DNA of 31,390 bases, from positions 1 to 31,390 of the IMG/VR virus record IMGVR_UViG_3300045806_000151. One strand, given 5' to 3'. This document shows, in pieces, positions 2,549 through 30,458 of the stretch (position 1 is its first letter; each line of letters starts with the position of its first letter). The DNA is from a virus. Under the pieces are notes generated by a model. It did no database searches and was not told the DNA's origin. It worked only from the letters and a program-made list of their open reading frames with translations. A program made the position numbers and the translations under genes.

Positions 2549-2584
2549 CCCCCACTAGAATTGATTTATCAATTTAGGGGTGGG
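2549..2584 (-). terminator. Palindromic hairpin at the recT stop
   Basis: AATTGAT at 2559-2565 and ATCAATT at 2568-2574 are perfect arms around TT, flanked by CCCC and GGGG runs that extend the stem imperfectly. The TAA of recT lies inside it. It could end transcription of the leftward recE-recT operon, although no clean U-run follows on the minus strand. It might instead belong to an IS605-type end. Confidence 0.4.
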
Positions 2585-3347
2585 AGTATGTCACCACATC
2601 ACGCAGCCGTGGGCGCGTATTCGCGATGGGTCGCTCTGTACCGGTTTTTTTTTGCAAAGTGGGTTCGTAGCCAGACTCAAGCAAAGAAAACAATTCTGAG
2701 GCACAAGGAAGGCGTTTTGCCAGTCGATGCAAGACTGTCTTGATCGCCATGCGGTCGAACCACAGCACCCATGGGCTGGCAGCATAGGTAGCACTTTTCA
2801 CCATATCTCTCACCTTTTCTACCTCAGATCGTGTCATCACTTCAACCATCAGTTCACCACTAACCAGTCTAGCAAAAGCGTATACCAGGCGAATATCCCC
2901 ACGGTTTTCAAACGCCGGACGATGCTCGATATGTTCGCCATTTTCGTTGACCCAATAATCAAACTTGTCGCCTGTATACACCACCTTGCCGGTGATGTTT
3001 GCTACTTGACCGGATTGACGTGCTCGTTTCAGGACGCCATCAACCATTGGGAGATACTGAGCTTTTTTTTCGAACTGTCCGGTACTGCGGTTCTTAGCGC
3101 TGTAAACCACCATCGTCGCTTCGCGTCCGTCAGGCATCAGGCCATCGCGAGCACAACGATTCAAAGACATCACTAAAGACTGCCTGTCAGCGTTGCGTAG
3201 TTCAGGATCAATCACCAACGCCGCTGCAGCGGTACGGATAAATTGCTCAACCGTAACATGATCCGGCAAAAGTGCGGCAATACCTTGCTGGGTTAACGCT
3301 GAAGATAAATCGGCATGAATACTTTCCAGGGTGGCTATCTGACTCAT
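2574..3347 (-). CDS. recT: RecT-type single-strand annealing protein
   Basis: This 257-residue protein is a RecT/RedB-family annealing protein, which coats ssDNA and pairs complementary strands in phage recombination with its partner exonuclease. The diagnostic core is clear: ALVIDPELRNADRQSLVMSL, then CARDGLMPDGREATMVVYS, then QYLPMVDGVLKRARQSG and YVFAR/LV-type strands. Length is close to E. coli RecT (269). Its start overlaps the recE stop by four bases (ATGA), so the two are translationally coupled. The last 25 or so residues (after SGYEPTLQ) do not look like the family, and an A9 run in the coding strand near 2646 makes a frame slip there plausible. The DNA-binding core is complete. Confidence 0.88.
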   Translation of the reverse strand: MSQIATLESIHADLSSALTQQGIAALLPDHVTVEQFIRTAAAALVIDPELRNADRQSLVMSLNRCARDGLMPDGREATMVVYSAKNRSTGQFEKKAQYLPMVDGVLKRARQSGQVANITGKVVYTGDKFDYWVNENGEHIEHRPAFENRGDIRLVYAFARLVSGELMVEVMTRSEVEKVRDMVKSATYAASPWVLWFDRMAIKTVLHRLAKRLPCASELFSLLESGYEPTLQKKTGTERPIANTRPRLRDVVTYSHP

Positions 3348-5101
3348 GCTATCTGTTCTCCGAATAGATCACCCTCACAGCGCTTTTTATCCGACCGGCG
3401 CGCCCACCAAGGTCGAGTGATGGTAGCCATGCTTGCTGCAACGCCTTCTCGCGCGGATTTTTCTAGCAGAGTGATGGATTCTCTTACCTGCAACAGTCCC
3501 TCTTTAGCATCCACCTCATCCAACATGCCAAGCAGCACAGGGTGACGTCCACACTCCTGTGTTTTGGTGATAGCACAGAAAGCAAAATCCACCTCCATAC
3601 CGAAAACAAGACCAACCACCGTGCTGTAGAAGGCGGCTTGAACATGGTAGCCGTATTTCTCTACGGATTTCCCAAAATCATGAATATCGTTGGTGGTTTT
3701 GATATCTAGCAGAAACGGCGCTCCACCAAACTCCCCCAGCCAGTCCGGGCGTACTTTAAGCAGGACGCCACCTTCGGTACGGTAAAATATCGACAGCTCG
3801 GCAATCCCATTTTGCAGCAGTTCAGACACGGTTGGGTGAGCCAGGGCAGAATCACGCATCAGACACACTTTGGCATAGTCGTCTGCCTTGATGGACATCG
3901 AACCATCCCCAGCACACTTCGCCTCGAATACCGCCAATTCTTCCTTGCCCTCTTTGGTGCGCAAATTTACGGCAGGCGCACTGACAAATTCACTGTGAAA
4001 CCGTCCTGGCTCCAGGATTGCAGTATGCACTGCTGTGCCGAACGAGAGTACAGAAGAATCCTTCTCACAACGTGGTGCTCGTTTGTACCATTCCAACGCC
4101 GCTGGCCCGCTAGATTGCACAAGACGAATTTGCGTGCTTGAATAGCCATCGCAAGCGTGGTAGGTCGCATTATTTAAGCCTGCGATCGTTAGGCTTCCGC
4201 CATTCGTAATTTCAGACAGTCGCTGATTAAGCGCATCAATTGTCAGATCACTACCGTTGAACTTGTTCTCAATTAAACCATTGACGGGCGGATAGTTTGA
4301 AAGAAAATCCAACGTCTGCTCGCTAACCTGAACTTGATCACCAGGGGCGTTCATTGAATCATTAGGCGCTAAATAGCTATTTAACGAATTAGCGCTTTTT
4401 AAATCATTCTGGATCGTAGAGGTTTGCATTTCTGATCGATTGATTACTTTTTCATCTCCATTTGATTGCGCTAATTCACCTGAGTGCGCTAAATCGCTTA
4501 GTAGCGAATTAGCGCAACTGGTCAGGGTGGAACCAGCATCAAAGCTGGTTTTTCCTTGTTGTTTATTCTGTTTGTTGGCTACCGATGAATTCTCGCCTAC
4601 CACACTATTCACATATTTACCCACTGTTTCAGTGGATAAGTCTCCGCGATAGAGGTGAAGAGCCAATGTTTGCACCTCGGCTAGGCAAATAGCTTTTGGC
4701 ATTCCAGCCATTGCTTCGGTGACTTGACGTCGCAAAGGCAGATATTCGGCATACACCTCTGGCTCGTCTTCAGGGCAGGCTAGCAGATCGTCTGCATCAC
4801 GACGTTCTTCAGAATCGTACTCATCTTGCTCACCAAAAATCGCCAGAAGGGCACAATACTGGTCGATAGCCTGTACGTTCAACTGAACCTTAGTTTTCTG
4901 ATAGTATTCGTCTTCGGATATTTCATCCAAGCGAGGCACCTTGTACATCATGCAGCACGCTGGATCTTGCTCTGACAATACTGCCAATGCCTTTAACTTC
5001 GCCGCATGTTTAGTCTCAGACGCTACAAAAGACGAAAAAGTTTTGTAACCATCCGGGTGCAAGGTTTTCTGTGAAACGTACATTACTTTGAAGTATTTCA
5101 T
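3344..5101 (-). CDS. recE: RecE-like exodeoxyribonuclease VIII
   Basis: The C-terminal 290 residues form a PD-(D/E)XK exonuclease of the RecE type: ATYHACDGYSSTQIRLV, VLSFGTAVHTAILEP, NLRTKEGKEEL, then the catalytic VRPDWLGE and FLLDIKTTND segments, then EKYGYHVQAAFYS. RecE degrades the 5' strand of dsDNA ends so that RecT can anneal the 3' tail. The protein is 585 residues, shorter than E. coli RecE (866). The N-terminal part (MKYFKVMYVSQKTLHPDGY) matches the RecE N-terminal region. A low-complexity linker at roughly 170-300 contains two in-frame copies of a palindromic repeat (ANSLNSYLA and ANSLLSDLA). The start ATG overlaps the stop of a 43-codon gene and is preceded by GGAGG. Confidence 0.88.
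   Translation of the reverse strand: MKYFKVMYVSQKTLHPDGYKTFSSFVASETKHAAKLKALAVLSEQDPACCMMYKVPRLDEISEDEYYQKTKVQLNVQAIDQYCALLAIFGEQDEYDSEERRDADDLLACPEDEPEVYAEYLPLRRQVTEAMAGMPKAICLAEVQTLALHLYRGDLSTETVGKYVNSVVGENSSVANKQNKQQGKTSFDAGSTLTSCANSLLSDLAHSGELAQSNGDEKVINRSEMQTSTIQNDLKSANSLNSYLAPNDSMNAPGDQVQVSEQTLDFLSNYPPVNGLIENKFNGSDLTIDALNQRLSEITNGGSLTIAGLNNATYHACDGYSSTQIRLVQSSGPAALEWYKRAPRCEKDSSVLSFGTAVHTAILEPGRFHSEFVSAPAVNLRTKEGKEELAVFEAKCAGDGSMSIKADDYAKVCLMRDSALAHPTVSELLQNGIAELSIFYRTEGGVLLKVRPDWLGEFGGAPFLLDIKTTNDIHDFGKSVEKYGYHVQAAFYSTVVGLVFGMEVDFAFCAITKTQECGRHPVLLGMLDEVDAKEGLLQVRESITLLEKSAREGVAASMATITRPWWARRSDKKRCEGDLFGEQIA
4366..4395. repeat. Palindromic repeat copy 1, in frame within recE
   Basis: A 30-bp element has outer arms GCGCTAA / TTAGCGC and an inner perfect palindrome AAATAGCTATTT. 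A 26-bp core (4367-4392) is repeated identically at 19493-19518, between two phage head genes. In recE it encodes ANSLNSYLA in a low-complexity linker. Confidence 0.8.
4487..4516. repeat. Palindromic repeat copy 2, in frame within recE
   Basis: This 30-bp sequence has the same outer arms GCGCTAAAT / GAATTAGCGC as copy 1 and matches it at 24 of 30 positions by eye. It is read in the same recE frame and encodes ANSLLSDLA. A further GCGCTAATTC half-element lies just upstream at about 4468. Confidence 0.7.
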
Positions 5102-5305: not shown

Positions 5306-6229
5306 TTACTTCATTTTTGCTATTTCTTTTGCTTTGAGTACAAAATTAGCAGGATAAGAAATGTTTAGTTCTTCAATCAAAGACAAGAAGACAGAAGCCT
5401 CAGAAGAAGAAGCTTCATCTGCCTCTATTTTTTCCGATAAATAGTCAACAACCTTATAGCGGTCATCAACTTTATTATCATTTTTGTTATAAGATTCACT
5501 ACACAACATTTTGAACGTAACTTTATCTTCTGGTTGATAGCTTCTTCCTTTTCTACTAATAGTGAAGCCATCCTTGAATCCATCTTTAATCAACCACAAT
5601 CCATTAGATTTTTTTACTATACTTTTTATAGGATTAATCAAAACTATATTTTTGAACACCTCGAACCTTGAGAATTTTTTAAAGTCAGTCCCTAGCATCA
5701 AACACAAATCGCTTAATGAAGTAGAATAATCTATGGATTTAAATCTACTAATAAGTTCTAAAATTCTTTTTTCATAAGAACCTTTAAAAGATAATAATAA
5801 CCTTAGATCGATTTCAGAAAATCCTTTTGAATAATCAAGCATATACGAAGCAGCTTGTTTCGTTACGGAAATTCTCAAGACACCATCTTCAAACGAGGCA
5901 TAACTGCAAAGTGCCACTTTTTCAAAAGAACGTGTTTCATCATTTTTTATTTCAGCAAAGCGCGCCATGATAGAAGTTGTCGCGCAATCAAGAGCTCCAT
6001 ATATCCCTTGACGCGTCATAGAGAAATGTTCACACAATTCATTAGTTTGAAAAATAAAATTGGTGGGTATGTCATCGTCATCGGGTTTAAAATGCTTTTT
6101 AGCTGCTTCCTTTTTCAGTCCCAGCATCATTAAGCTAAGTAAATCTTGCTCTCTTGGAGAAAGCTTCATCCTAGCAGCAATGAAATGGTGCGATTTTTTA
6201 ACCGATAACATACAAACCATCGTTAACAT
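5306..6229 (-). CDS. repA: Plasmid replication initiator, Rep_3 (RepB/RepE-like) type
   Basis: The 307-residue product has two-winged-helix initiator architecture. The N-terminal helix-turn-helix region includes KLSPREQDLLSLMML and TNELCEHFSMTRQGIYGAL. The second wing has the signature of this superfamily: GSYEKRILELISRFKSIDYS, then LSDLCLMLGTDF and FSRFEVFKNIVLINPIKSI. Such proteins bind iterons and open the origin with DnaA. The iterons and DnaA boxes lie about 590-770 bases upstream of its start. Several ATGs (6229, 6220, 6211) could be the start; none has a clear ribosome site. The C-terminal tail (residues 250 on) is acidic. The coding sequence is more AT-rich than the neighbouring recE. 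Confidence 0.78.
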   Translation of the reverse strand: MLTMVCMLSVKKSHHFIAARMKLSPREQDLLSLMMLGLKKEAAKKHFKPDDDDIPTNFIFQTNELCEHFSMTRQGIYGALDCATTSIMARFAEIKNDETRSFEKVALCSYASFEDGVLRISVTKQAASYMLDYSKGFSEIDLRLLLSFKGSYEKRILELISRFKSIDYSTSLSDLCLMLGTDFKKFSRFEVFKNIVLINPIKSIVKKSNGLWLIKDGFKDGFTISRKGRSYQPEDKVTFKMLCSESYNKNDNKVDDRYKVVDYLSEKIEADEASSSEASVFLSLIEELNISYPANFVLKAKEIAKMK

Positions 6230-6503
6230 TACAATACGCCACTATTTTATAAAACAAACAATGGTCCGTCAAGTGTTTTCTGAGTCGCCACTTTTGCGGT
6301 TAGCCACCCAGCTTGTACCCTTCAGAGAGCGGATCTTCTAAAAAAATCAAGGTTCCACAGGGAAAATGGACCCTATTCCACATTAATCCTAGATAGAAAT
6401 TCCTCCCTGAAGCGCCCCCTGAAAGGTAAAAACTAGTCGGGGCAACAAGAAAACTAGGTGGTGTCAAAGTGAGCGCATCACTTCAAGATTCCGGATCAAA
6501 CCC
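6230..6503. other. Intergenic leader of repA, nothing identified
   Basis: This stretch separates the initiator gene from the left copy of the 204-bp repeat. It includes an AT-rich block next to the repA start (6235-6260) that could hold its promoter. A short open frame ends VPFRERIF at 6341, but nothing about it looks like a conserved protein. No RNA gene or IS end was recognised. Confidence 0.4.
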
Positions 6504-6707
6504 AAATTCACCCAGAAGCCCACAGAAAGCTCTGTGAGCGAATTTTTCCTAGAAATGCGTGAGGATAGGCCCACGATACACAACGCGCCTCCAGTGGCTT
6601 TGCATGGCGCCTCAGGGCCATTAATCCTAATGGCTCCCTTAAATATTTGAGAAATGACTTTGAAGTGATCAAGGAGACCATCAAAAAAAACCAGTGAGTT
6701 TCAATGA
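6504..6707. repeat. Left copy of a 204-bp direct repeat flanking the origin
   Basis: Aligned with 7059-7262 at a constant offset of 555 bases, the two copies differ at about seven positions (about 97% identity by eye). Together they bracket the iteron array and DnaA boxes. This copy carries the same short open frame as the right copy (from KPKFTQKPTES onward) but lacks its ATG. Four of the differences change amino acids only conservatively or not at all in that frame. Confidence 0.85.
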
Positions 6708-6786: not shown

Positions 6787-6795
6787 TGTGGATAA
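6787..6795 (-). promoter_or_regulatory. DnaA box, consensus
   Basis: TGTGGATAA is the exact reverse complement of the consensus DnaA box TTATCCACA. It lies 23 bases before the first iteron. Confidence 0.75.
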
Positions 6796-6818
6796 ATGCC
6801 CTGGAAAGGTAAGTACAG

Positions 6819-6900
6819 GTAGGTGTATGAGTAAAGTTTAAGTAGGTGTATGAGTAAAGTTTAAGTAGGTGTATGAGTAAAGTTTAAGTAGGTGTATGAG
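6819..6900 (+). repeat. Iterons: three full and one partial 23-bp direct repeats
   Basis: Identical units starting GTAGGTGTATGAGTAAAG begin at 6819, 6842, 6865 and 6888, a constant spacing of 23 bases. The fourth keeps only the first 13 bases. Short tandem units next to a DnaA box and an AT-rich zone, beside a Rep_3 initiator gene, fit Rep-binding iterons. The absence of variable spacers rules out a CRISPR array. Confidence 0.88.
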
Positions 6901-6998
6901 GTTTCAAGCTATTGATTTGTATAATAAAAAAACACCCCTTTACTTTCTTTAGTTTCTTTTAGTTTTTTTACATATATTTATTACTTAGAATCTTGAAC

Positions 6999-7007
6999 TG
7001 TGAATAA
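6999..7007 (-). promoter_or_regulatory. Second DnaA-box-like site
   Basis: TGTGAATAA differs from the consensus (TGTGGATAA) at one base and is a recognised functional variant. It lies on the far side of the AT-rich zone. Confidence 0.5.
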
Positions 7008-7019: not shown

Positions 7020-7205
7020 ATGACTAGTCCTCACCCTAACCGCAAGTTCGTTAAACCAAAATTCACCCAGAAGCCCACAGAAAGCTCTGTGAGCGAATTT
7101 TTCCTAGAAATGCGTGAAGATAAGCCCACGATACACAACGTGCCTCCAGTAGCTTTGCATGGCGCCTCAGGGCCATTAATCCTAATGGCTCCCTTAAATC
7201 TTTGA
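7020..7205 (+). CDS. Possible small 61-residue protein beside the origin
   Basis: An ATG at 7020 opens a 61-codon frame beginning MTSPHPNRKFVKPKF and ending LILMAPLNL. Most of it lies in the right copy of the 204-bp repeat. The left copy preserves the same frame with only conservative or silent changes (R/K, A/V, I/L), a weak sign of coding. There is no clear Shine-Dalgarno and no family match that I recognise. It could instead be a non-coding repeat with a chance frame. Confidence 0.3.
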   Translation: MTSPHPNRKFVKPKFTQKPTESSVSEFFLEMREDKPTIHNVPPVALHGASGPLILMAPLNL

Positions 7206-7262
7206 GAAATGACTTTAGAGTGATCAAGGAGACCATCAAAAAAAACCAGTGAGTTTCAATGA
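7059..7262. repeat. Right copy of the 204-bp direct repeat flanking the origin
   Basis: This copy is nearly identical to 6504-6707. Immediately after it the sequence passes into an IS605-type right-end remnant, while the left copy continues into unrelated sequence towards the origin. Recombination between the two copies would remove the intervening iterons. Confidence 0.85.
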
Positions 7263-7362
7263 GGCCACTCGATGAAGCAGGAACCCGCCGAAGTGAGTCA
7301 GGCGCAAGCTTGAACGCAGTAGGAATCATCGCCCTTTAGGACGGTGAGGATGTCAAAAGTCG
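7260..7362 (+). mobile_element. IS200/IS605-type right-end remnant
   Basis: The segment has the features of the end of a TnpB-encoding element: a GATGAAGCAGGAA block, GCAAGCTTGAACGCAG, then a hairpin (CATCGCCC / GGACGGTG around TTTA), closing with GAGGATGTCAA. In IS605 elements this region is the scaffold end of the omega RNA and the right end. No TnpB coding sequence lies directly upstream here; the 204-bp repeat is there instead. The call relies on recalled family patterns. Confidence 0.45.
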
Positions 7363-7434
7363 GCTCCTATCCCGATCAAGAAGCCCTGTGTTCAGTTTGG
7401 AGTTTCTTGGGTAGCAGCGAGAATCTGATAAATA

Positions 7435-7662
7435 TCACCTGGTGTGGATGCTCTTCTCTTTCAGCGCCATAAAAGCAGCGATCAAAACATCTTTCTGGCT
7501 CATATCATTCGCAGCAGCATAGAGCTTAAAATCACGTTTAAATTCAGCAGTGACTTTGAAATTGAGATCGACATTAATACTGGATTCTCGCCTTACCGTA
7601 TTACAGGTCTCTTGTAAGACTGGCCGAGGTTTGGGGCTCCCAATCAGGGTCACTGTTTTCAA
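7435..7662 (-). CDS. ParG-like small partition protein (ribbon-helix-helix)
   Basis: The 75-residue product has a flexible polar N-terminus and a C-terminal ribbon-helix-helix: SSINVDLNFKVTAEFKRDFK as strand and first helix, then DMSQKDVLIAAFMALKEK as second helix. This is the layout of ParG/StbB-type centromere-binding proteins that partner small ParA proteins. The TTG start overlaps the ParA stop (TTGA), so the two are coupled. GAGG precedes the start. It probably binds the operator/centromere in front of parA and represses the operon. A CopG-like repressor of other function is possible, but the position makes partition most likely. Confidence 0.72.
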   Translation of the reverse strand: MKTVTLIGSPKPRPVLQETCNTVRRESSINVDLNFKVTAEFKRDFKLYAAANDMSQKDVLIAAFMALKEKSIHTR

Positions 7663-8285
7663 TTTGATATCCTCACAGAAATACTGTTAACAACCTGAAT
7701 GGCGTAATTATTTAGTGCTGGATAAAGGGTTTCAGTCAGGCAGCGCCCTGTATCCAATGCCGTGATATAACCTGTTTTCATTGGGATGTGTCCCTCCAGT
7801 ACGGTGAATCCATGCCCAGTAATCGTTTCCCGTGCTTCATGTACCTGATTTACGCTGGTAGTTCGATAAAGAACAAATACAATATTATAGCTATTTAGCG
7901 ATTTAGCTAATTCTTTAGCAAGAAAAATACCAGGCTCCATATCGTCTAGACTAGAACCTGTCGGAATGATTATCAGATCAGAATGGATTGCAGCTTCCAA
8001 TGTCCCTTGAGTAGCATGAGGCGCACCATCAATTACCAATAGGTCAACATCAGGAGCCGCCATTAGTGCCTGATGAGTACTATGGAATACCTGGGCGGAA
8101 ACGTCGGGTTTAATATCTGCCTGTCGACGACGGTTTTCAACCCAACCAGAAGCCGTTGCTTGTCCCGGATCAGTATCGGCCAGCAGTGTTTTCCATCCTG
8201 CTCGAGTAAATTCTACGGCAATTGTTCTTGATATCGAGGATTTCCCTACCCCCCCTTTCTGGCTAATCACACTGATAATCAACAA
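7659..8285 (-). CDS. parA: ParA-family partition ATPase (type Ib, ParF-like)
   Basis: The 208-residue ATPase begins with a deviant Walker A motif, SQKGGVGKSS (signature lysines K10 and K15). It then has the A' motif ADTDPGQATAS and Walker B LLVIDGAPH. Its length, and the absence of an N-terminal helix-turn-helix, match small type Ib ParA proteins such as ParF, which move plasmid copies apart on the nucleoid. Starts are TTG at 8285 or 8282; the second is 5 bases from a strong AAGGAGG. Residues near 125-135 (ELAKSLNSYNI) are encoded by a copy of the palindromic repeat found in recE. It is the first gene of a two-gene operon with the ParG-like protein. Confidence 0.85.
   Translation of the reverse strand: MLIISVISQKGGVGKSSISRTIAVEFTRAGWKTLLADTDPGQATASGWVENRRRQADIKPDVSAQVFHSTHQALMAAPDVDLLVIDGAPHATQGTLEAAIHSDLIIIPTGSSLDDMEPGIFLAKELAKSLNSYNIVFVLYRTTSVNQVHEARETITGHGFTVLEGHIPMKTGYITALDTGRCLTETLYPALNNYAIQVVNSISVRISN
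7885..7915. repeat. Palindromic repeat copy 3, in frame within parA
   Basis: On the coding (minus) strand the sequence reads AATTAGCTAAATCGCTAAATAGCTAT. It shares the 14-bp core CGCTAAATAGCTAT with the copies at 4367 and 19493. It encodes LAKSLNSY, the same peptide theme as the recE copies (ANSLNSY), so the frame is conserved between two unrelated proteins. Confidence 0.6.
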
Positions 8286-8289: not shown

Positions 8290-8325
8290 TCCTTATACGC
8301 TAATTAGCTAATTAGCATTTTAGCA
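8290..8325. promoter_or_regulatory. Putative parA operator/centromere with TTAGC/GCTAA repeats
   Basis: Immediately upstream of the parA ribosome site the plus strand reads CGCTAATTAGCTAATTAGC followed by ATTTTAGC, that is, overlapping GCTAA and TTAGC palindromes. Small ParA operons are normally autoregulated by the ribbon-helix-helix partner at such repeats, which can also act as centromere. The repeated words also make up the palindromic elements at 4366, 4487, 7885 and 19493. Confidence 0.55.
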
Positions 8326-8767
8326 TAATCTCCCGTGGAGTAAAGTGTAAATAAATTATTCATATTTATCATATAGTTACGAACGAATTCATAAAATTTT
8401 TATAGACTTACAATAAAAAAAATGAACCTGTTTTTCACTTAAAAAATCGTTGGAGTAAATTTTTATTACTTATTTTTCAAATAGATAAAAGAAATCCGTA
8501 AATTTTTTGATGAAATTCAATTCCGTCGTACCTAATGTTTCACACATTCAGCAACGTTCTTTAAAAATATAGAACCTGTTTAATTGAGCAGATAACCCGC
8601 TGGCGCGTTGAAAAACATGCGTCCCCTTAGAATGCGGTAAAATCAATCAAAGAGATCTACCGGTGCGTTAAAACTATAACGTACCGGTATGTGCCGAGTA
8701 TTTTTATTAAAAATTCAAAATATATTTTAATGAAAATACTCTGAAAACTAATTAGGATTAAATCAAA
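8326..8767. other. Long AT-rich intergenic region before the lysis genes
   Basis: About 440 bases without a gene separate the leftward parA operon from the rightward lysis genes. It probably holds divergent promoters, but no clean -35/-10 pair stands out. The main visible structure is an inverted repeat at 8658-8689. Nothing resembling a tRNA or a known small RNA was recognised. Confidence 0.45.
8658..8689 (+). repeat. 12-bp inverted repeat upstream of the holin
   Basis: TACCGGTGCGTT (8658-8669) and AACGTACCGGTA (8678-8689) pair with a single mismatch around the 8-base loop AAAACTAT. It lies about 80 bases before the holin start. It could be an operator for the late genes or a structured leader. 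No T-run follows, so an intrinsic terminator is less likely. Confidence 0.5.
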
Positions 8768-9073
8768 GTGCATGATCGTGAACCGAATTTATGGGCTTTG
8801 ATTTTTACATGGCTTTTGCCATTTAAAGAACAGGCGACCGGGGCGTTTCTCTCCGCAGTAATGGCCTGCTTGCGGGGGGGATATAACAACTGGAAACCAT
8901 GGAAAATGCTGATTGATTCGCTAATGTGCGCAATTTTTGCTTGGTTTATTCTAGATATTTTAGATTATCTAGAACTAAAAAAAGAATTAGCGTATATCGG
9001 TAGCGTCATCATTGGTTATCTTGGAACGGACTACATTGGAAATTTACTCTGCCGCATCATTGAAAAAAAGTAA
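8768..9073 (+). CDS. Phage holin, lambda-family
   Basis: The 101-residue protein has three hydrophobic stretches: GAFLSAVMACLRGGYNN (about 26-42), MLIDSLMCAIFAWFILDIL (about 46-64) and ELAYIGSVIIGYLGTDYIG (about 73-91). The WKPWKMLIDSLMCA motif and the length match the lambda-type phage holin family. It forms membrane lesions that release the endolysin at the end of infection. The GTG start is preceded by AGGA about 12 bases upstream; the endolysin follows 14 bases after its stop. Confidence 0.82.
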   Translation: MHDREPNLWALIFTWLLPFKEQATGAFLSAVMACLRGGYNNWKPWKMLIDSLMCAIFAWFILDILDYLELKKELAYIGSVIIGYLGTDYIGNLLCRIIEKK

Positions 9074-9087
9074 GACCAGGAATACCA

Positions 9088-9537
9088 ATGAAAGTCAGCA
9101 ATAATGGGTTAGAATTAATTAAAAAATTTGAGGGTTGTAGGTTAACCGCTTACCCTGATGCTGGTACGGGCGGAGCACCATGGACGATTGGATATGGCTG
9201 GACACACTCAGTGAAGGAACTACCCGTTCAAGCAGGAATGACTATTTCCCAAACAATGGCTGAAGATTTGCTCCGAATAGGAATTGTTCAGTTTGAGAAA
9301 TGCGTGAGTCAGCTTCTTCAAGTATCAGTTAATCAAAACCAGTTCGACGCCCTGGTGAGCTTTGCCTACAACGTTGGGAAGACAAAGTTCGCAAATTCTA
9401 CCCTTCTGAAACTAGTTAACGAGAGTGATTTTGATGGTGCTGCTATGCAGTTCTCACATTGGAACAAAGCAAGTTCTAATGTTCTTCCTGGCCTGATCTA
9501 TCGACGTGCGGCTGAGCGTGAATGTTTCATTTCTTGA
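9088..9537 (+). CDS. Endolysin, GH24 lysozyme (muramidase)
   Basis: The 149-residue protein is a T4-type lysozyme that cuts the NAM-NAG bond in peptidoglycan. The catalytic triad region is visible: KKFEG with Glu15, then AYPD with Asp24, then WTIGYG with Thr33. Next come FDALVSFAYNVG and RRAAERECF, as in P22/lambdoid phage endolysins. There is no N-terminal membrane anchor, so it depends on the holin for release. The start ATG has CAGGAA upstream. Its stop overlaps the most likely Rz start (TGATG). Confidence 0.9.
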   Translation: MKVSNNGLELIKKFEGCRLTAYPDAGTGGAPWTIGYGWTHSVKELPVQAGMTISQTMAEDLLRIGIVQFEKCVSQLLQVSVNQNQFDALVSFAYNVGKTKFANSTLLKLVNESDFDGAAMQFSHWNKASSNVLPGLIYRRAAERECFIS

Positions 9538-10061
9538 TGCGGAGACTCATACCATGGAAACCTGCTATCTCGACAGCTTTCCTGATCATCAGTGTACTGG
9601 CTTTCTCGCATTGGCGATATCTGGCAGGGTTCACAACTGCAGAACTAAAGTGGCAGCAACGGTGGAGAGAGCGGGATCTGTTTGATGCTAAGTCATTGGA
9701 GCAGGGGCAGCGAAAAGCCAGAGAAGAAGAACAACGCCGACAAGGGGAGATAGATGCTATTAGGGAAAAAGCCGAACAAGAATTGGCCGTCGTTAAGGCT
9801 GATGTCAATTCTGCACGTGCTGCTGCTGACCGCTTGCACGACAAATCCGCCCAGCTTGCACGGAGTCTTGCATCCTGTGAAAGAGCCTGCCATACCAAAA
9901 CTGCCGGAACAAGCCCGCCAAATGGCAATAGCGCCATTATTCTCGCCGAGTTGTTCCGCCTCGCTGACGAAAGAGCGGGAATATTGGCAGAATATGCTGA
10001 TAATGCCAGAGCCAGAGGCTTAGCCTGTGAAGCAGCATATGATGCACTGTGTCAAAAGTGA
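9537..10061 (+). CDS. Rz: Rz-like inner-membrane spanin
   Basis: The product (about 174 residues) has an N-terminal signal-anchor helix, AISTAFLIISVLAFSHW. A long periplasmic coiled coil rich in E, R, Q and A follows (EEEQRRQGEIDAIREKAEQE onward). It resembles the DUF2514/Rz group. The i-spanin pairs with an outer-membrane lipoprotein to fuse the two membranes after the endolysin has acted. The ATG at 9537 overlapping the endolysin stop is preferred; an in-frame ATG at 9522 inside the endolysin gene is an alternative. The Rz1 gene is nested inside in another frame. Confidence 0.75.
   Translation: MRRLIPWKPAISTAFLIISVLAFSHWRYLAGFTTAELKWQQRWRERDLFDAKSLEQGQRKAREEEQRRQGEIDAIREKAEQELAVVKADVNSARAAADRLHDKSAQLARSLASCERACHTKTAGTSPPNGNSAIILAELFRLADERAGILAEYADNARARGLACEAAYDALCQK
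9754..10023 (+). CDS. Rz1: Rz1-like outer-membrane lipoprotein spanin nested in Rz
   Basis: Wholly inside Rz, in a different frame, an open frame carries a lipoprotein signal: LMSILHVLLL followed by the lipobox LTAC and a C-T-T-N-P-P start to the mature protein, which is proline-rich (EPAIPKLPEQ). This is the classic o-spanin pattern. The ATG at 9754 follows GGGGAG and gives a basic n-region (GKKPNK). The ATG at 9802 gives a shorter signal without lysine or arginine. Either way the lipidated cysteine is the same. Confidence 0.72.
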   Translation: MLLGKKPNKNWPSLRLMSILHVLLLTACTTNPPSLHGVLHPVKEPAIPKLPEQARQMAIAPLFSPSCSASLTKEREYWQNMLIMPEPEA

Positions 10062-10147
10062 GGAGATGGTTTTTGAATTCTGGTAGATGCTTTCGGCAAG
10101 CTGGGCGTACTGTTCGAAAATAATAATGAATTTCGATAGGGGGCTTG

Positions 10148-11164: not shown

Positions 11165-11234
11165 CTTGAGAAAATAGGGTGCTTTTGTGTATTGTCTTTT
11201 ATTTGAGGCTTTCTGGACTAGAAACTCGCGTTAT

Positions 11235-19491: not shown

Positions 19492-19492
19492 T

Positions 19493-19518: not shown

Positions 19519-19525
19519 TATTTAT

Positions 19526-20805: not shown

Positions 20806-20807
20806 GC

Positions 20808-22313: not shown

Positions 22314-22323
22314 GGAGCAGTGT

Positions 22324-23308: not shown

Positions 23309-24818
23309 GTTTCTGCTCAAATTTGGCATAGATGCTGACACTACGCCTCTAAAAAACTTTATCTCGGTTGTTACGGTCGGAGTTAAGGGTATCAGCGGAG
23401 CGGCTAACTTGGCCAATGATGCGCTTTCAAATATTCAATTATCTGCAAACTCCGCTACCGCAGCGATAGATGAAATTTCATCAGGTGTTGCCTTAAATAT
23501 AGACACATCCAGTATTGAGCAGGCTATTGATACCACTAACGATCTATCTACATCCATTTTCTCTGCTGGAAACGCGGCTTCCTACGCTACCACACCAGTC
23601 AAGCAATTGGGCGATCAAGCCAGTAAGTCAGCAAAGAAAGTAGCAGTACAAGCTGAAGGACTTCACCGTCCTTTTAGAAAAATAAAAATACTGGCGCTCA
23701 GTGTGACAGCAGTTATCAGTGGACTGGCTGCTGGCATAATGTCATTCATTGGCAGAAGCCTTGCTGGCGCGAAGGATCTGTCAGAGCAAAAAGGGTTGCT
23801 GTATGACATCACAGAGCAGGAAATAAAACAGGCTGATGCCTATGCGGAGGCCATGAATAAAACAGGCCTATCCGTACAATCCCTGAAAACAAAAATTGCG
23901 TTAAACCTAACGCCAGCGCTTACAAATGCCGTTAATGGTTTTAACGCTTGGCTAAGCGCAAATAAAGAGTTACTCACGAAAGGGCTGAGTGTCGTCATTC
24001 AATCGCTTGTCAAAGTAGTGCAACTTGTCGTGAACACTTTCTTCGCCGTGAATAAACTTGTTGAGTCTACTTTCGGCTGGAAAGCGGCAATCATGCTCGT
24101 CGTCTCGGCAATCAGCATCTTCAAGCGTGCAATGCTAATGGCTTTTATCACCCAACCGGTGACATTGGTGGTAACAGCTATCGCTGGGCTGCTACTTATC
24201 CTTGATGATCTGATGACGTACCTGGACGGCGGTGAGTCATTATTTGGTGCTTTTTGGAAGCCTGCTGTGGAGTGGACAAAAAAGGTTATTGCGTGGTGTA
24301 AGCAACTTTATTCGCAATACAAAGACATGATTGACAAGTTATCAGCATCATTTTCGCAGATATGGGAAGGGTTAAAAACCTACCTCACAGGTCTGTTTGA
24401 CTGGCTTACCACTTCTGTTGGAGCAGTGGTAGACATTGTAGAAAAAATTTTTGAAAACCTCACCGAGGCGATTAAAAAACCATTCATTGTGGCGTTTGAT
24501 TGGGTAATGAGCTACTACGATAAAACCATTGGTAAGATATCTGGCCTGTGGAAAATGTTAAAAGATACTATAGGTGGTATGGGTGATTCCGTAAAGGCTA
24601 CCATTGGTATGGACTTTGCTACGTCTGCTGCTTCTCCCAATCCAGCAAATAGTGGGCAAATTGGGGCGGCGGGTGCTCCGACGATTAACGGTGGGGATGT
24701 GAAAGCTACAATCAATATCAATGCATCAAATGCGACTGATGCACAGCGAGGCGTTGAGCGAGGCCTAACCAATGCAAACCGCCAGGCACTGGCTAACATG
24801 CAAGGGGTCCTACGTTGA
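23295..24818 (+). CDS. Tape measure protein
   Basis: The 507-residue protein is alanine-rich and helical, with hydrophobic segments expected of a tape measure: AVISGLAAGIMSFIG (about 135-150), then MLVVSAISIFKRAMLMAFI and LVVTAIAGLLLILDDLMTYL (about 265-310). It ends with ATININASNATDAQRGVERGL, a typical C-terminal region. It sets tail length; at the usual 0.15 nm per residue the tail would be about 75 nm. The GTG start has GGAG 10-13 bases upstream, inside the chaperone extension. It is short for the role, as in many short contractile tails. Confidence 0.85.
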   Translation: MILDEFLLKFGIDADTTPLKNFISVVTVGVKGISGAANLANDALSNIQLSANSATAAIDEISSGVALNIDTSSIEQAIDTTNDLSTSIFSAGNAASYATTPVKQLGDQASKSAKKVAVQAEGLHRPFRKIKILALSVTAVISGLAAGIMSFIGRSLAGAKDLSEQKGLLYDITEQEIKQADAYAEAMNKTGLSVQSLKTKIALNLTPALTNAVNGFNAWLSANKELLTKGLSVVIQSLVKVVQLVVNTFFAVNKLVESTFGWKAAIMLVVSAISIFKRAMLMAFITQPVTLVVTAIAGLLLILDDLMTYLDGGESLFGAFWKPAVEWTKKVIAWCKQLYSQYKDMIDKLSASFSQIWEGLKTYLTGLFDWLTTSVGAVVDIVEKIFENLTEAIKKPFIVAFDWVMSYYDKTIGKISGLWKMLKDTIGGMGDSVKATIGMDFATSAASPNPANSGQIGAAGAPTINGGDVKATININASNATDAQRGVERGLTNANRQALANMQGVLR

Positions 24819-25555
24819 ACATAACTGGATTTCTCTCTTCATTGTCGGGTTCGTCGTCTGTTATTACGCGATCTATCGGTACATTTCATTTTGACGCTGT
24901 GACCAGTGAGTCACACGATTCCACATTAAGACTCACTGAAAACCCCGTGGAATCTGGTGCAGCTATTGCTGATCATGCTGTGCTTGAGCCGAAAGAAATT
25001 ACGATCACTGGCATCATGGTTGGATACACGCCGCCTGATTATCTCCATTCAGTAACGGGTTTGGATGGTAAGGTATTTGATCGCTTCCCACTACCTATCG
25101 GTGTTAGAGCTGTCACAGCGCAAGCTAAGAGCATGATAAATCGCTATGGGTCTGTTTTCGTGGATGCAAGCGAGAAGGCTACACGGTTTTTAACTCCATT
25201 CCTACCAGACTATTTAGGCGACAAAAAAGATGAATCAGCGACAATGGATCGGGTGGGAATGGCCTACGACCGGTTGCTTACTCTGCAAAAAAGCGGCGAG
25301 TTTATCGATGTGATAACTGGAGTAAGGAGTTACAGTAACATGCTGATAACCAATATCACACTGCTGCAAACGGTAGATCTGTCTGCTGAATTTGGAATCA
25401 CTGCACGAGAGGTTTTTATTGCTAAAAGCCAGACAGCCAGCGGCATTCATCCCGACATGAACTCAGCGCCAAAAGTTGCGCAGAAAGGCAAGACAACACC
25501 TAAGAAAGTGGACATAACTGCGAGGGGTTCTATTTTAAAAGATCTATTTGGGTGA
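24815..25555 (+). CDS. Baseplate protein with Dit-like N-terminal domain
   Basis: The 246-residue protein directly follows the tape measure gene and overlaps it by four bases (TTGA). The segment IGTFHFDAVTSESHDSTLRLTENPVESGAAIADHAVLEPKEITITG-like, with the NPVE...I.DH....P..I.I.G pattern, is the signature of Dit-like N-terminal domains. Later come YDRLLTLQKSGEFIDVITGV and SYSNMLITNI. It should sit at the tube-baseplate boundary. The C-terminal 40 residues are basic and probably flexible. The TTG start is chosen from the overlap and the family alignment. Confidence 0.75.
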   Translation: MNITGFLSSLSGSSSVITRSIGTFHFDAVTSESHDSTLRLTENPVESGAAIADHAVLEPKEITITGIMVGYTPPDYLHSVTGLDGKVFDRFPLPIGVRAVTAQAKSMINRYGSVFVDASEKATRFLTPFLPDYLGDKKDESATMDRVGMAYDRLLTLQKSGEFIDVITGVRSYSNMLITNITLLQTVDLSAEFGITAREVFIAKSQTASGIHPDMNSAPKVAQKGKTTPKKVDITARGSILKDLFG

Positions 25556-25573
25556 TTGTCGGAGTACTGAGGT

Positions 25574-25933
25574 ATGATTTACTATGAAATTCCGGCAACG
25601 TCGGAACCAATACAAGAGCAGTCATTTTCCCTGTTTGGCTACAACCTGAGGTTTAAGCTGAGGTTTAACTCTGTTAGTGCATTGTGGAATTTTGACTTGT
25701 TCGACATCAACAAAAACACATACATCACGCAAGCTGCTGGGTTGTCCATCCGTTCACCCGTGCTTCTCGGAAAAAATTTTCCCTTCATTGTCACAATGAC
25801 CGATGGATCTGGATTAGGCATCAATTCAATAATGCAAAATGAAATGGGGAAGCGTCTTCGAGTGATATTCGTAGAAAAATCGGGGTGGTATGAAACAGTT
25901 TGGTCGACAATACAAGCTAACGCTCGGCAATGA
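25574..25933 (+). CDS. Baseplate plug family protein
   Basis: The 119-residue beta-rich protein begins MIYYEIPATSEPIQEQSF. It contains YNLRFKLRFNSVSALWNFDLFD and GLSIRSPVLLGKNFPF, the pattern of baseplate plug proteins (W-x-F/D-L-x-D ... L.....L). It probably closes the tube at the centre of the baseplate. It is placed between the Dit-like and hub genes, as in related phages. It overlaps the hub gene by 44 bases. TGAGGT lies just before the ATG. Confidence 0.7.
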   Translation: MIYYEIPATSEPIQEQSFSLFGYNLRFKLRFNSVSALWNFDLFDINKNTYITQAAGLSIRSPVLLGKNFPFIVTMTDGSGLGINSIMQNEMGKRLRVIFVEKSGWYETVWSTIQANARQ

Positions 25934-26720
25934 ATATGAATCAATCATTATCAATAATCTGCGTATCAGGTTTGAAATAATAAAGAGCTTGAGTAGTGCC
26001 CCAAACCCCGCAACCATTCACATTTACAATCTTAACGAATCACACCGCAACGCGCTAGCCAGCAAGCAATTCAACAAAGTAATTCTCTCCGTCGGTTACG
26101 AAAATATACGCGATATTTATATGGGCGATATTATTGAGCCTCGGACAATACGCGAGGACCTGGATTTTATTACTGAGGTGTTATGTGGGGACGGATGGAC
26201 AGCATATACGAGATCAGTAATCAGTAAAACATTGCGGGCAGGTGCTACTGATGCCGACATACTCAAAGCCGCACAAAGCACTATGCTTGGCATAGATTCA
26301 GGGGTGGTGGAGTTACCTAAAGACCGGGTTTTGCCTCGCAGCAAGGTGATGATGGGTAACAGCCGCGATGTGCTGACTAAGATTGCTAAGAATAATAATG
26401 CCGATTGGTCAGTGCAAGATGGTCAGTTGATCATTCTACCTAAAGACAAGGTGCTTGCTGATAATGAAGGGTTTGTCATGTCGCAAATTACTGGAATGAT
26501 CGGAACACCTGAAAAAACCGACGACGGTCTAAAGGTCACTTGTTCACTCAATCCTGCAATGCGTATTGGCGGATTGGTACGCATTGAGTCCATCATCAAC
26601 GAATACAGTGGTGATTACAAAATCACTGAGCTAACGCATTCCGGAGACTTCATGGAAAGCACATGGCATACGACAATCACTTGCGTGGGCGGCCAGTATA
26701 GGATGGTGAAAATTGAGTAA
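25890..26720 (+). CDS. Baseplate hub protein (gpD/gp27-like)
   Basis: The 276-residue product has the hub pattern. The N-terminal domain has LRIRFEIIKSLSSAPNPATIHIYNLNESHRNAL and a VILSVGYEN/IYMGDI barrel. A helical insert follows (ADILKAAQSTMLG), then DVLTKIAKNNNADWSVQDGQLIILPKD, and a final ITGMIGTPEKTDDGLKVTCSLNP / GGLVRIES / GDYKITELTHSGDF region. This is the usual phage-tail hub order. It carries the spike. It starts within the plug gene and overlaps the spike gene by eight bases. Confidence 0.8.
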   Translation: MKQFGRQYKLTLGNEYESIIINNLRIRFEIIKSLSSAPNPATIHIYNLNESHRNALASKQFNKVILSVGYENIRDIYMGDIIEPRTIREDLDFITEVLCGDGWTAYTRSVISKTLRAGATDADILKAAQSTMLGIDSGVVELPKDRVLPRSKVMMGNSRDVLTKIAKNNNADWSVQDGQLIILPKDKVLADNEGFVMSQITGMIGTPEKTDDGLKVTCSLNPAMRIGGLVRIESIINEYSGDYKITELTHSGDFMESTWHTTITCVGGQYRMVKIE

Positions 26721-27327
26721 AGATCCCGATTTATTCGACGTTATAAAGCGATTGGCAGAAGTTGAGCGAATTGATATTCACACTGCCTTGCCTGCTCGCA
26801 TCGTGTCATACGATGGAGGACAAACCGTCACCGTTGAAGTGATGATTAGACAATCTTCTGAAACAGGTGCAATTGAAATCCCACCACTTATTGATGTTCC
26901 CGTGCAATTTCCCCGTGCAGGAGGATTCTGTTTTACAGTACCAATTGTGACAGGTGATGAAGGGTTGGTAATATTTGCGGAACGCTGCATCGACGGTTGG
27001 TGGGCTACAGGTGAAAAATCAGACCCTATGGATGCAAGAATGCACGATTACTCCGATGCATTTTTTATTCCAGGCGTATCTAGTCGAAAAAAAGCACTTC
27101 CGAATCTCTTTATGGGCGGGGCATCAATCCAAACGGACGACGGTAGCACATTTCTTCGAATTACTAATGGGAGAGTGCTGATTAAGGGAGACATCGAGCA
27201 CACTGGCAGTATGAAAACCACTGGCGTTATCGTTGGTCAGGATGTCAAAACTGATAATGGCATATCTTTGAAAAACCATAATCACCCTGACCCTCACGGT
27301 GGTAATACAGGAAAACCAAATCAATGA
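26713..27327 (+). CDS. Membrane-puncturing spike (Gp138/Mu gp45-like)
   Basis: The 204-residue protein has an N-terminal OB-like domain (LPARIVSYDGGQTVTVEVMI, then PPLIDVPVQFPRAGGF, then DEGLVIFAERCIDGWW), as in Gp138/gpV-type spikes. A beta-helix stalk follows (TFLRITNGRVLIKGDIEHTG, MKTTGVIVGQDVKTDNG). It ends with the histidine-rich tip HNHPDPHGGNTG, which in Mu and P2 spikes binds a metal ion. The trimer pierces the outer membrane. The TTG start overlaps the hub gene. It overlaps the next gene by four bases. Confidence 0.82.
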   Translation: MSKDPDLFDVIKRLAEVERIDIHTALPARIVSYDGGQTVTVEVMIRQSSETGAIEIPPLIDVPVQFPRAGGFCFTVPIVTGDEGLVIFAERCIDGWWATGEKSDPMDARMHDYSDAFFIPGVSSRKKALPNLFMGGASIQTDDGSTFLRITNGRVLIKGDIEHTGSMKTTGVIVGQDVKTDNGISLKNHNHPDPHGGNTGKPNQ

Positions 27328-27713
27328 GAGTTAGAAGATTAGACAATGAAGAAGACTGGTCATTCGGTAGAGGGCTTAACAGTTATGCCAATAATTCAGA
27401 GGCCATTGCTCAATGCGTCAAAACTCGACTGCTATCACTGCATAATGACTGGTTTTTAAACCGTGATGATGGCGTTAAGTGGTTTAACTACCTATGTAAA
27501 AAACCCGATCTACGGACGATGGAAGTAGAACTAAAAAGCACTGTGCTGAATACATACGGCGTAGAAACCATTCTGAATTTCGATATTAAAATACCAGAAG
27601 GGATACGCACTGCAGTGATAACCGTCGGCTATCTCGACAGATATGGTAGCGAAAAAGGAGTCACAACGAATGCCCCATATTACCAATTCAGGGTTAGTTA
27701 TAGACCAGATTGA
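27324..27713 (+). CDS. Baseplate wedge protein, gp25/gpW-like
   Basis: The 129-residue product reads MRVRRLDNEEDWSFGRG at the start, then AIAQCVKTRLLSLHNDWFLN, the gp25-like core. A VELKSTVLNTYGVETILNFDI segment follows, and it ends YYQFRVSY. The protein links the sheath to the baseplate wedges. It is coupled to the spike gene (ATGA overlap) and its end overlaps the baseplate J gene by 44 bases. Confidence 0.75.
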   Translation: MRVRRLDNEEDWSFGRGLNSYANNSEAIAQCVKTRLLSLHNDWFLNRDDGVKWFNYLCKKPDLRTMEVELKSTVLNTYGVETILNFDIKIPEGIRTAVITVGYLDRYGSEKGVTTNAPYYQFRVSYRPD

Positions 27714-28782
27714 AGAAATTCACGCTCGCCTTGTTGGCGGATTTAAACGCATCTATGGCGATGACATTAACGTTGATGCTGATACGCCAGACGGTCAGAT
27801 GATTGGCATATTCAGTCAGGCTCTGTCCGACATCAACGAGGCGTTACAGTTTGCCTACCAAATGCTAGATCCTTACCGCGCAACAGGCGAATGGCTAGAA
27901 CAGCGGGCATTATATGCTGGTGTTGTCCGTAGAAACGCTGAATATAGTCACATAGAAGATGCAGAAGTAACTGGACAGCATGGGGTCAACATTCCAGCTG
28001 GCATAATATTTAGCGATGAGAACAAAGCAAAATGGATCACGGTAGAGGATGTGACAATCAGTTCGTCAAACACTTTGAAATTACGTAGTGTGGCGTTAGG
28101 CGCATTCGAATTACCGGCAAAATCTATATTAAAAATGGAAACAGTTATTTTGGGTGTAGCGTCCGTGACGCTGAGAAAAGCAGCGAGAACAGGGCTAGAA
28201 GAAGAAAGCGATTCGCAGTTATTGCAGCGTTTCATGGCATCACATTCGATCAATAACTATGATGACCGCGACGGCATAGAAGCAATGATACGTAGTGTAC
28301 CAGACGTTCGAAAAGCGAAGGTTCTGGAGAATTACACCGGTTCAACTGATGTGAACGGTGTAGCACCTCATACGGTTAATGTGATCGTGATCGGTGGTGC
28401 GGATGTTGATATTGCTAAGGCAATCATCAAAAAGAAAATTGGTGGCGCTGGTCTGCAAGGGGCACATAAAGTAGCGTTGTTCTATAACGGCGCACATCGT
28501 CAATTTGAATTTGACAGAGCTCAGAAAATCGACGTGATCCTTGTTGTTATACTCGGACGCCTGCAAGGTTTTAATGATGTAGATACAACTTCGATCATCA
28601 ATCGTCTAACTGGATTAGAGTTTAATATTGGTGAAGATGTTCACGCGCTATCACTTGCCTGCAAGATCGAATCAGGCAGTGGTTATTTTATCAAATCTAT
28701 TAAGATTAACGACACTGACACGGTAGAGGTCGGCGTAAGGCAATATGCGAATATAGTCAAAACAGAGGTTTATATTGAATAG
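27670..28782 (+). CDS. Baseplate J-like wedge protein
   Basis: The product (370 residues from ATG 27670) matches Baseplate_J/gp47 proteins. It has DTPDGQMIGIFSQALSDINEALQ, then YRATGEWLEQRALYAGVVR, then GVNIPAGIIFSDENKAKW, and the middle SDSQLLQRFMASHS / DGIEAMIRSVPDVRKAKVLENYTG region. It forms the wedge that spreads on contraction. ATG 27670 is preferred to the in-frame GTG-type start at 27643 because AGGAG lies 10-14 bases upstream of it. The DUF2612 gene overlaps its end. Confidence 0.85.
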   Translation: MPHITNSGLVIDQIEEIHARLVGGFKRIYGDDINVDADTPDGQMIGIFSQALSDINEALQFAYQMLDPYRATGEWLEQRALYAGVVRRNAEYSHIEDAEVTGQHGVNIPAGIIFSDENKAKWITVEDVTISSSNTLKLRSVALGAFELPAKSILKMETVILGVASVTLRKAARTGLEEESDSQLLQRFMASHSINNYDDRDGIEAMIRSVPDVRKAKVLENYTGSTDVNGVAPHTVNVIVIGGADVDIAKAIIKKKIGGAGLQGAHKVALFYNGAHRQFEFDRAQKIDVILVVILGRLQGFNDVDTTSIINRLTGLEFNIGEDVHALSLACKIESGSGYFIKSIKINDTDTVEVGVRQYANIVKTEVYIE

Positions 28783-29434
28783 CTTTCTTATTTGGCAATA
28801 TCGCGGGAAGCCGAAAGCAGCTCTAACCATCGATCTATTGCAAACAGAGGCGTCTCGATCATTCAAAACAGCTCTAGAACTAGCTAGGGTTCTCGATATC
28901 AACGTTGCCACAGGAGACAATCTTGATCTGGTGGGAAAACATGTCGGAATTTCTCGCACGGTATCTGAATTCATTGACCGTAGATATTTCGGTTTTAGCA
29001 GAGACATTAATGCTAGTGCGTTTAACTATGGTGTTTTCTATCGTATCAATGACACTTTAAGGGACCCTATCAAACTGACTGATGAAGAATACAAATTTTT
29101 TATCATTGCCAAAGCAATGAAGAATTATCAATTTCCTACCATAGATAATATTACGGATTCAGCCAAATACCTTCTTGGAAATTCCGTGGTGGTTATAGAC
29201 AACTACGATATGACAATGAACTTGGTTTTCCCGATCAGAAACGTAAGTCAGTTAATATTACATGCTATTTTAAATATGGATATATTGCGTCGCCCCGTAG
29301 GAGTTATGTATCGATTTTTCATTATCACGGATGATAAACCCTTTGGGTGGGAAAGTGATAACCATGCATTCGGATTCAACATTGGTAAATTCTCAAGGAT
29401 TGTTAATGTCTATAATAAAAAAACCAAACTTTAG
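28775..29434 (+). CDS. DUF2612 baseplate-tail fibre connector
   Basis: The 219-residue protein has ASRSFKTALELARVLDINVATGDNLDLVGKHVGISRTV, the DUF2612 pattern (a ... G..LD..G...G..R). YFGFSRDINASAFNYGVFY and DEEYKFFIIAKAMKN follow. Such proteins play the part of P2 gpI, linking baseplate wedges to fibres. The TTG start overlaps the baseplate J stop. Its 3' end overlaps the tail fibre gene by 29 bases. Confidence 0.78.
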   Translation: MNSFLIWQYRGKPKAALTIDLLQTEASRSFKTALELARVLDINVATGDNLDLVGKHVGISRTVSEFIDRRYFGFSRDINASAFNYGVFYRINDTLRDPIKLTDEEYKFFIIAKAMKNYQFPTIDNITDSAKYLLGNSVVVIDNYDMTMNLVFPIRNVSQLILHAILNMDILRRPVGVMYRFFIITDDKPFGWESDNHAFGFNIGKFSRIVNVYNKKTKL

Positions 29435-30458
29435 TGAAATATTTTCTAGCGAAGCAAAGCCAGGGGAAATGCAGGAATTCCCAGATATTTTAAGGGGATG
29501 GGGAATAACACAAGAGCAAACAGCAGGGAAGCCACCGATGGAGTGGTTCAATGCCATTCAGAAACGTGCCGATGAAGCGATTTTATATTTGGCACAGCAG
29601 GGGATTTCCGAATGGTCACAAAAAATTGATTACCCGAGAGATGCCGTAGTTAAACTTAACGGATTATTTTATGTCTCGATTAAAGAAAATAAATCAAAGA
29701 ATCCGGAAACAAGCCAGTCAGACTGGAAGTCACTGGTAGATGCATTGAGTTTGAAAAGTGCAACATTAACTCAGAAGGGAATTGTGAAATTAAATAGTGC
29801 CATAAACAGTACCAGCGAAACGATGGCAGCAACGCCTAAGGCTGTTAAAGAAGCTTATGATGCGGCTAATAGTAATTTGAATGGCCGACTATTAAATATT
29901 CAAACTTTTAAATCTAGCGGAACTTACACGCCGACAAAAGGAACGAAAAAAATTCATGTAAAAGTATGGGGAGCTGGTGGCGGAGGGTCGAATACAAAAT
30001 TAGCTAATGGTGGTGGTTTCTCAGGTGATGGAGGTGGGTATGCAGAAAGCTTAATTAATGTCCCTAGTAGTTCTGTTAGCGTCATAGTCGGTGTTGGAGG
30101 CGCTTCGGTTCCAGAAAATACGCTAGCTCCAGGTGGTAATGGTGGGTCATCTTCATTCGGTAATTTAATAAAGTCCAATGGTGGTAATGGAGGAGGTAAT
30201 TCCTCTAAAAGTGAACGAGGTGGTCAAGCCGTCGGTGGAAATATTATTAACACCAACGGGCAAGCTGGACAAGGGTCTGTATCGGATAACATTGCAGGAA
30301 CTGGTGGTGCAGCATTTTGTTCTTTTGGCGGCTTACCACATTCCTCAACAAAAGGAGATGATGGTGGTTTTCCTGGTGGCGGTGGCGCTGGTGGAAATAA
30401 GATATATTCATCTGGCTCCGGTGCTGACGGGTATGTGATCGTGGTAGAATATACATAA
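29406..30458 (+). CDS. Tail fibre with glycine-rich receptor-binding tip
   Basis: The product (350 residues from ATG 29406) starts KKPNFSEIFSSEAKPGEMQEFPDILRGWGITQEQTAGKPPMEWFNA-like, a common baseplate-attachment domain. A short carbohydrate-binding-like SEWSQKIDYPRDAVVKLNGLFYVSI segment and the fibre repeat TLTQKGIVKLNSAINSTSETMAATPKAVKEAYD follow. The last 160 residues are glycine-rich (GAGGGG, GDGGGY, GGNGGS, GGNGGG, FPGGGGAGG), ending YVIVVEY. Glycine-rich tips of this kind form polyglycine helices that bind host receptors. AAGGA lies 6-7 bases before ATG 29406. No fibre chaperone gene follows, and IS elements begin 100 bases later. Confidence 0.82.
   Translation: MSIIKKPNFSEIFSSEAKPGEMQEFPDILRGWGITQEQTAGKPPMEWFNAIQKRADEAILYLAQQGISEWSQKIDYPRDAVVKLNGLFYVSIKENKSKNPETSQSDWKSLVDALSLKSATLTQKGIVKLNSAINSTSETMAATPKAVKEAYDAANSNLNGRLLNIQTFKSSGTYTPTKGTKKIHVKVWGAGGGGSNTKLANGGGFSGDGGGYAESLINVPSSSVSVIVGVGGASVPENTLAPGGNGGSSSFGNLIKSNGGNGGGNSSKSERGGQAVGGNIINTNGQAGQGSVSDNIAGTGGAAFCSFGGLPHSSTKGDDGGFPGGGGAGGNKIYSSGSGADGYVIVVEYT

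Follow-up and report, generated by a model that had tools for sequence, protein, structure and literature searches.

A contractile-tail phage genome with a Rep_3-type replicon and partition genes: a candidate phage-plasmid related to circular plasmids of Erwinia

Gene content and layout

The window, that is, the whole stretch of 31,390 nucleotides analysed here, is an entire virus record and is classed as linear. From left to right, after an Rpn transposase, the minus strand carries genes for RecT, a RecE-like nuclease and a Rep_3 initiator, then an origin-like region and genes for a 75-residue protein and ParA; the plus strand continues rightward with holin, lysozyme, spanin, tyrosine recombinase, terminase, head, sheath, tube, baseplate and fibre genes, the block from terminase to tail fibre spanning 11389–30458. 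Rep_3, iterons, DnaA boxes and a ParF/ParG-like pair occur here together with packaging and lysis genes and a complete virion gene set. The features are:

2574–3347, minus strand: RecT annealing protein, truncated at the C-terminus (Pfam RecT, 2e-31)
3344–5101, minus strand: RecE-like PDDEXK exonuclease (DUF3799), 56–68% to pETR003-a in two blocks
5306–6229, minus strand: Rep_3 (WH1) plasmid replication initiator (Rep3_N, E=1.3e-16), 33% GC
6787–7007, no strand: origin region with a DnaA box (6787–6795), four iterons (6811–6900), an AT-rich stretch and a DnaA box (6999–7007)
7435–7662, minus strand: predicted ParG-like ribbon-helix-helix centromere-binding partner, 75 residues (phrog_6024), 67–68% in Erwinia relatives
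7659–8285, minus strand: ParF/ParA-type Walker partition ATPase, 208 residues (CbiA/ParA domain), 69% to pETR003-a and pETR006-a
8768–10061, plus strand: lysis cassette of holin (8768–9073), lysozyme (9088–9537) and DUF2514 Rz-like spanin (9522–10061)
10145–11164, plus strand: tyrosine recombinase with catalytic motifs (Phage_integrase, 2e-14)
11389–13189, plus strand: small and large terminase subunits, TerL 87% to pETR006-a
13288–13572, minus strand: TacA-type antitoxin with no adjoining toxin gene
13643–13744, plus strand: res site with three GTAC-bounded subsites of 24, 30 and 17 bp
13759–14352, plus strand: small serine resolvase (Resolvase, 9e-37), 81% to pETR003-a and 59–60% to Arsenophonus plasmids
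14384–20805, plus strand: head and neck genes (portal, MuF-like, DUF2213, cement, major capsid, DUF4054, neck, tail terminator), 38–75% to pETR003-a
20808–30458, plus strand: contractile tail (DUF3383 sheath, tube, chaperone, tape measure, baseplate hub, spike, baseplate J, DUF2612, tail fibre)

All parts named in an earlier note on this DNA, that is, Rep_3, iterons with DnaA boxes, ParA with a partner, RecET, a recombinase and a myovirus set with lysis genes, were located; its inventory had left out the serine resolvase, the res site and the TacA antitoxin. Both RecET genes are present, but RecT comprises 257 residues versus 342 in pETR003-a and aligns (69%) to residues 1–255 only of the latter, about 85 C-terminal residues being missing relative to its relatives. 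Neither a cI/cro-like gene, the absence of which had been noted before, nor an immunity repressor was found among the roughly 38 open reading frames scanned.

Pieces resembling IS5/ISEc35 lie near the two contig ends (382–641 and 30695–31390); they belong to two different elements in opposite orientation. The record thus stops in repeats, and a circular form of this molecule is putative. That the two pieces are one element split by linearisation was considered and rejected, as their opposite orientation and a likeness of only ~71% in the overlap mark them as different copies. Neither end showed flanking chromosomal genes, and Rfam and tRNA scans of the window were both empty. A near-identity DNA search (~85% or more) with positions 2500–27000 gave no match among 72,556 plasmid and 50,697 phage records. 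Single-protein scans of viral contigs returned nothing for the capsid and ParA queries and a single match for Rep, a record of the A. nasoniae type; among 295 genomes sampled in one family, no ParA relative exceeded 45% identity, and an overlapping second sample of 198 added none.

Replication module

The combination of a WH1-type initiator, iterons and DnaA boxes is that of a Rep_3 iteron replicon, as which the region is predicted to act. The closest relative of the initiator is the Rep of A. nasoniae paNv_CH10 (47%). The iterons have a 23-bp period (6819–6900; 3.6 copies, 100% match). Exact DnaA boxes occur just twice in the whole window, 1.4 being expected, and these two flank the iterons and the AT-rich stretch. 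The Rep_3 gene is AT-rich compared to the window (33% versus 44% GC), and in the Erwinia plasmids pETR003-a and pETR006-a the same slot is occupied by RepL; judged from these sequences, the replication module appears to have been swapped. The slot between TerL and portal varies in a similar manner, with toxin-antitoxin genes of the RelB/YafQ, HigBA or DUF4160/DUF2442 type in relatives and TacA in the window. Pfeifer et al. in 2021 reportedly found the phage genes of phage-plasmids to be conserved and their plasmid genes to be variable, and the exchange of Rep and toxin-antitoxin genes agrees with this.

Two 210-b direct repeats, 96% alike (6498–6707 and 7053–7262), flank the iteron/DnaA region, and the origin would be lost if they recombined. 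Beside the second repeat, some 110 b (7262–7373) match the end of IS200/IS605 (TnpB-type) elements of many enterobacterial plasmids.

Partition genes and GCTAAAT-type sites

Among the partition proteins of the PDB, ParA is matched best by ParF (4dzz) and another small ParA (5u1g). As in type Ib systems, the ATPase is short and lacks an N-terminal DNA-binding domain, and a small downstream partner overlaps it by 4 b. Structure prediction of the partner, for which the sequences of the window and of locus L002 only were used, gave a disordered N-terminal tail and two helices at moderate confidence (pLDDT 60); ribbon-helix-helix folds, ParG (1p94) among them, top the fold list, with every match at E>0.5 and none significant.

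Palindromic sites of the GCTAAAT type are found within recE and parA, upstream of parA and between two head genes:

4367–4395, no strand: palindromic site within recE
4470–4515, no strand: second site within recE
7887–7921, no strand: site within parA
8298–8326, no strand: palindromic site upstream of parA, candidate operator/centromere
19493–19518, no strand: intergenic copy between two head genes, identical to 4367–4392 in 26 of 26 positions

In pETR003-a and pETR006-a, the strongest half-site clusters lie at the corresponding places within recE and parA and upstream of parA; in L002, such clusters are prominent at the two par places alone. The regions for the k-mer enrichment were picked after the motif had been seen, and the unbiased part of this analysis is the ranking of clusters over whole elements. 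Conservation of the site within parA could also partly reflect conservation of the protein. The palindromes of recE and parA and the one preceding parA are proposed as candidates for a dispersed centromere and operator.

Resolvase, res site and tyrosine recombinase

Three pairs of inverted arms, bounded by GTAC, occur in the interval that separates TerL from the serine resolvase. Subsites I and II of Tn3-type res sites measure 28 and 34 bp, and those of the window fit these lengths when extended by two bases at both ends. The spans are identical in the window, L002, pETR003-a and the Arsenophonus plasmids, while the sequence of the arms varies (GTACTAAA versus GTACAAAA). The three-subsite pattern was found at 10 of 180 loci, all of them plasmid-type and one being the window itself (L001); 200 simulated windows did not contain it. 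A resolvase domain next to three inverted subsites is the anatomy of a small serine resolvase with its res site, which makes this enzyme the likelier multimer resolver; the role had earlier been ascribed, tentatively, to the tyrosine recombinase, for which it now seems less probable.

The record of Erwinia phage LS-2018a (CP013974; locus L091) contains two copies of res (15924–16025 and 47766–47867). They are 31,842 b apart, which is exactly the length of pETR003-a and consistent with a circle or concatemer; the deposited record looks like a circle read nearly twice.

In the gap between the tyrosine recombinase and TerS (11164–11389 in the window; also in loci L083 and L084) short repeats are present, AATTGCGAT in the window and TTCCGAA/TTCCGCA in Arsenophonus, which are candidates for packaging or recombinase sites.

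Circular relatives

Erwinia tracheiphila pETR003-a (NZ_CP089945) is a circular plasmid, complete at 31,842 bp, and its gene order matches the window from RecT through the fibre. It and LS-2018a share with the window a collinear RecET-rep-par-lysis-int-ter-resolvase-portal-tail backbone (ParA 69%, TerL 82%, capsid 75%), the res site, and the recE and parA palindromes in matching places; pETR003-a has counterparts to 30 of the window's 34 phage-plasmid genes. They differ in carrying RepL instead of Rep_3, a DUF4160/DUF2442 pair instead of TacA and a longer RecT, and in a GC content of 51% compared to 44%. By backbone and gene sharing, the window belongs to this family.

Other circles are further removed. 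Erwinia tracheiphila pETR006-a (NZ_CP089937; circular, complete, 35,983 bp) has the par pair, RecET, the lysis and recombinase slots and a TerL 87% alike in common with the window, but its head and tail genes are 25–34% alike, it encodes RepL and another resolvase, and no matching res site is present. A. nasoniae paNv_CH7 and paNv_CH8, complete circles and looser relatives, likewise encode a DUF3383 myovirus, a recombinase before TerS and a resolvase with res, whereas their partition genes are of the ParM/StbB rather than the ParF/ParG type and their head and tail genes are 26–33% alike. The check set in advance was whether rep, par, lysis and terminase genes stay together in relatives; they do so in pETR003-a, pETR006-a, paNv_CH7 and paNv_CH8. 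The joining of a replication gene to par-lysis-int-terminase in circular relatives indicates that the junction in the window is not due to chance IS rearrangement or to an assembly chimera.

Precedents have been described: Frost et al. 2020 (PMC7157526) found in Arsenophonus four extrachromosomal elements that consist wholly of circularised prophage, circularised prophages carrying Rep genes are on record there for A. nasoniae, circularised prophages of Arsenophonus have been named phage-plasmids (PMC12090721), and LS-2018a has been treated as a putative temperate phage (PMC9866893). No paper describing the Erwinia plasmids as phage-plasmids was found within the literature collection searched.

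Integrated prophages and known phage-plasmids

For comparison, some 150 TerL-bearing loci were taken from viral and genome contigs, with flanks of at most 10 kb, so that genes farther away may be missed. At DUF3383-sheath loci without plasmid genes (Xenorhabdus, Photorhabdus, Morganella, Gilliamella and others) many head and tail genes are 46–80% alike to those of the window, but TerL mostly abuts portal directly, and within these flanks no match was seen to the par pair, the recombinase before TerS, TerS itself, the resolvase or res. Their absence from chromosomal-type loci makes the par pair, the pre-TerS recombinase, TerS and the resolvase marks of a plasmid-type branch, and the window has all four.

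P1, N15 and SSU5 work in a similar way, in that phage genes are combined with plasmid replication and partition. They share only 2, 3 and 1, respectively, of the 34 genes with the window (SSU5 being compared over 99,999 of 103,299 b), and on this measure the window falls outside their groups, as the earlier note had held. Its type is not unprecedented, the Arsenophonus circular prophage-plasmids (PMC7157526, PMC12090721) having been published.

Interpretation

The window is best read as almost the entire genome of a temperate phage with a contractile tail, maintained in its host as a partitioned plasmid of low copy number, the record itself being linear; we give this reading a probability of roughly 0.88. 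It is a member of the pETR003-a/LS-2018a family and, more distantly, kin to the circular prophages of Arsenophonus nasoniae. The earlier proposal of a prophage kept as a partitioned plasmid is strengthened, because complete circular relatives keep the same order and because the par pair, the recombinase before TerS and the resolvase were seen only in plasmid-type relatives. The restriction of the res pattern to plasmid-type loci, the res spacing in LS-2018a, the iterons with DnaA boxes and the published Arsenophonus precedent (PMC7157526) point in the same direction. Against it stand the linear record ending in IS5-like pieces, the truncated RecT, the lack of a recognisable immunity repressor among the reading frames scanned and the retention of a tyrosine recombinase, which leaves some probability to chromosomal integration.

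After injection, the genome would circularise with the help of RecET, and Rep_3 would bind the iterons and, together with DnaA, open the AT-rich origin. Copies of the resulting extrachromosomal element would be partitioned by the ParF-like ATPase and the ParG-like protein acting on GCTAAAT-type sites, while the serine resolvase at res would turn multimers into monomers. Upon induction, lysogeny would give way to expression of the late genes, which would package the genome into virions and lyse the host.

Centromere sites of N15 are dispersed along its genome. Four separate palindromic ones, IR1–4, are described (PMC7205306). A bolder scenario, which we hold tentatively and at somewhat less than even odds, is that the GCTAAAT palindromes, including the copy in the head region, form a dispersed centromere/operator recognised by the ParG-like protein. 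In that case, a layout like that of N15 would have evolved in an unrelated ParF/ParG system, within a distinct phage-plasmid family that swaps replication (RepL or Rep_3), partition and toxin-antitoxin modules around a fixed myovirus-resolvase core.

The alternative that survives best overlaps the phage-plasmid reading and differs from it only with regard to particles: the element may be a defective derivative that replicates and partitions but makes no virions. The truncation of RecT suggests that the element may be decaying; IS pieces lie at both ends, the tape measure is shorter, no tail-fibre assembly gene was found in the window, and related A. nasoniae and A. apicola plasmids clearly have lost phage blocks. 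As the genes for head, tail, terminase and lysis are nevertheless open reading frames, most of them near the expected length, we consider such a defect a minority possibility, albeit one of some weight.

Much less probable is a prophage integrated into a chromosome by the tyrosine recombinase, with the plasmid genes as chance cargo. The catalytic motifs of this enzyme are intact, its best general match is to integrases, and the nearest chromosomal relatives of the window are integrated DUF3383 myoprophages; yet the recombinase occupies the same position before TerS in circular plasmids and in all plasmid-type relatives that carry it (29–34% identity), par, res and resolvase are missing from the chromosomal-type relatives, and the ends show no chromosomal genes. 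An assembly chimera, or IS-driven joining of an unrelated plasmid and phage, as the AT-rich Rep_3 gene near IS605-type remnants might suggest, is very improbable, since independent complete plasmids keep the par-lysis-int-terminase order and have a replication gene at the corresponding place, and the Rep type alone differs, as expected from a module swap.

Phage-plasmids, including those of Arsenophonus, are already known, while the family of the window is barely described; new are the serine resolvase with its three-subsite res, the RepL/Rep_3 swap and the positional conservation of GCTAAAT-type palindromes in the Erwinia relatives. The window helps to define a compact (~31–42 kb) family of contractile-tail phage-plasmids from insect- and plant-associated enterobacteria outside P1, N15 and SSU5. 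Its conserved resolvase-res core and RepL/Rep_3 exchange are simple marks by which plasmid phages in draft genomes may be separated from look-alike integrated prophages, and module exchange in phage-plasmids as well as dispersed centromeres become testable in a small system.

In A. nasoniae paPv12 (NZ_CP123516; locus L088), a res site (3307–3407) is present together with terminase, without annotated resolvase or head and tail genes; this plasmid is possibly a phage-plasmid turned plasmid.
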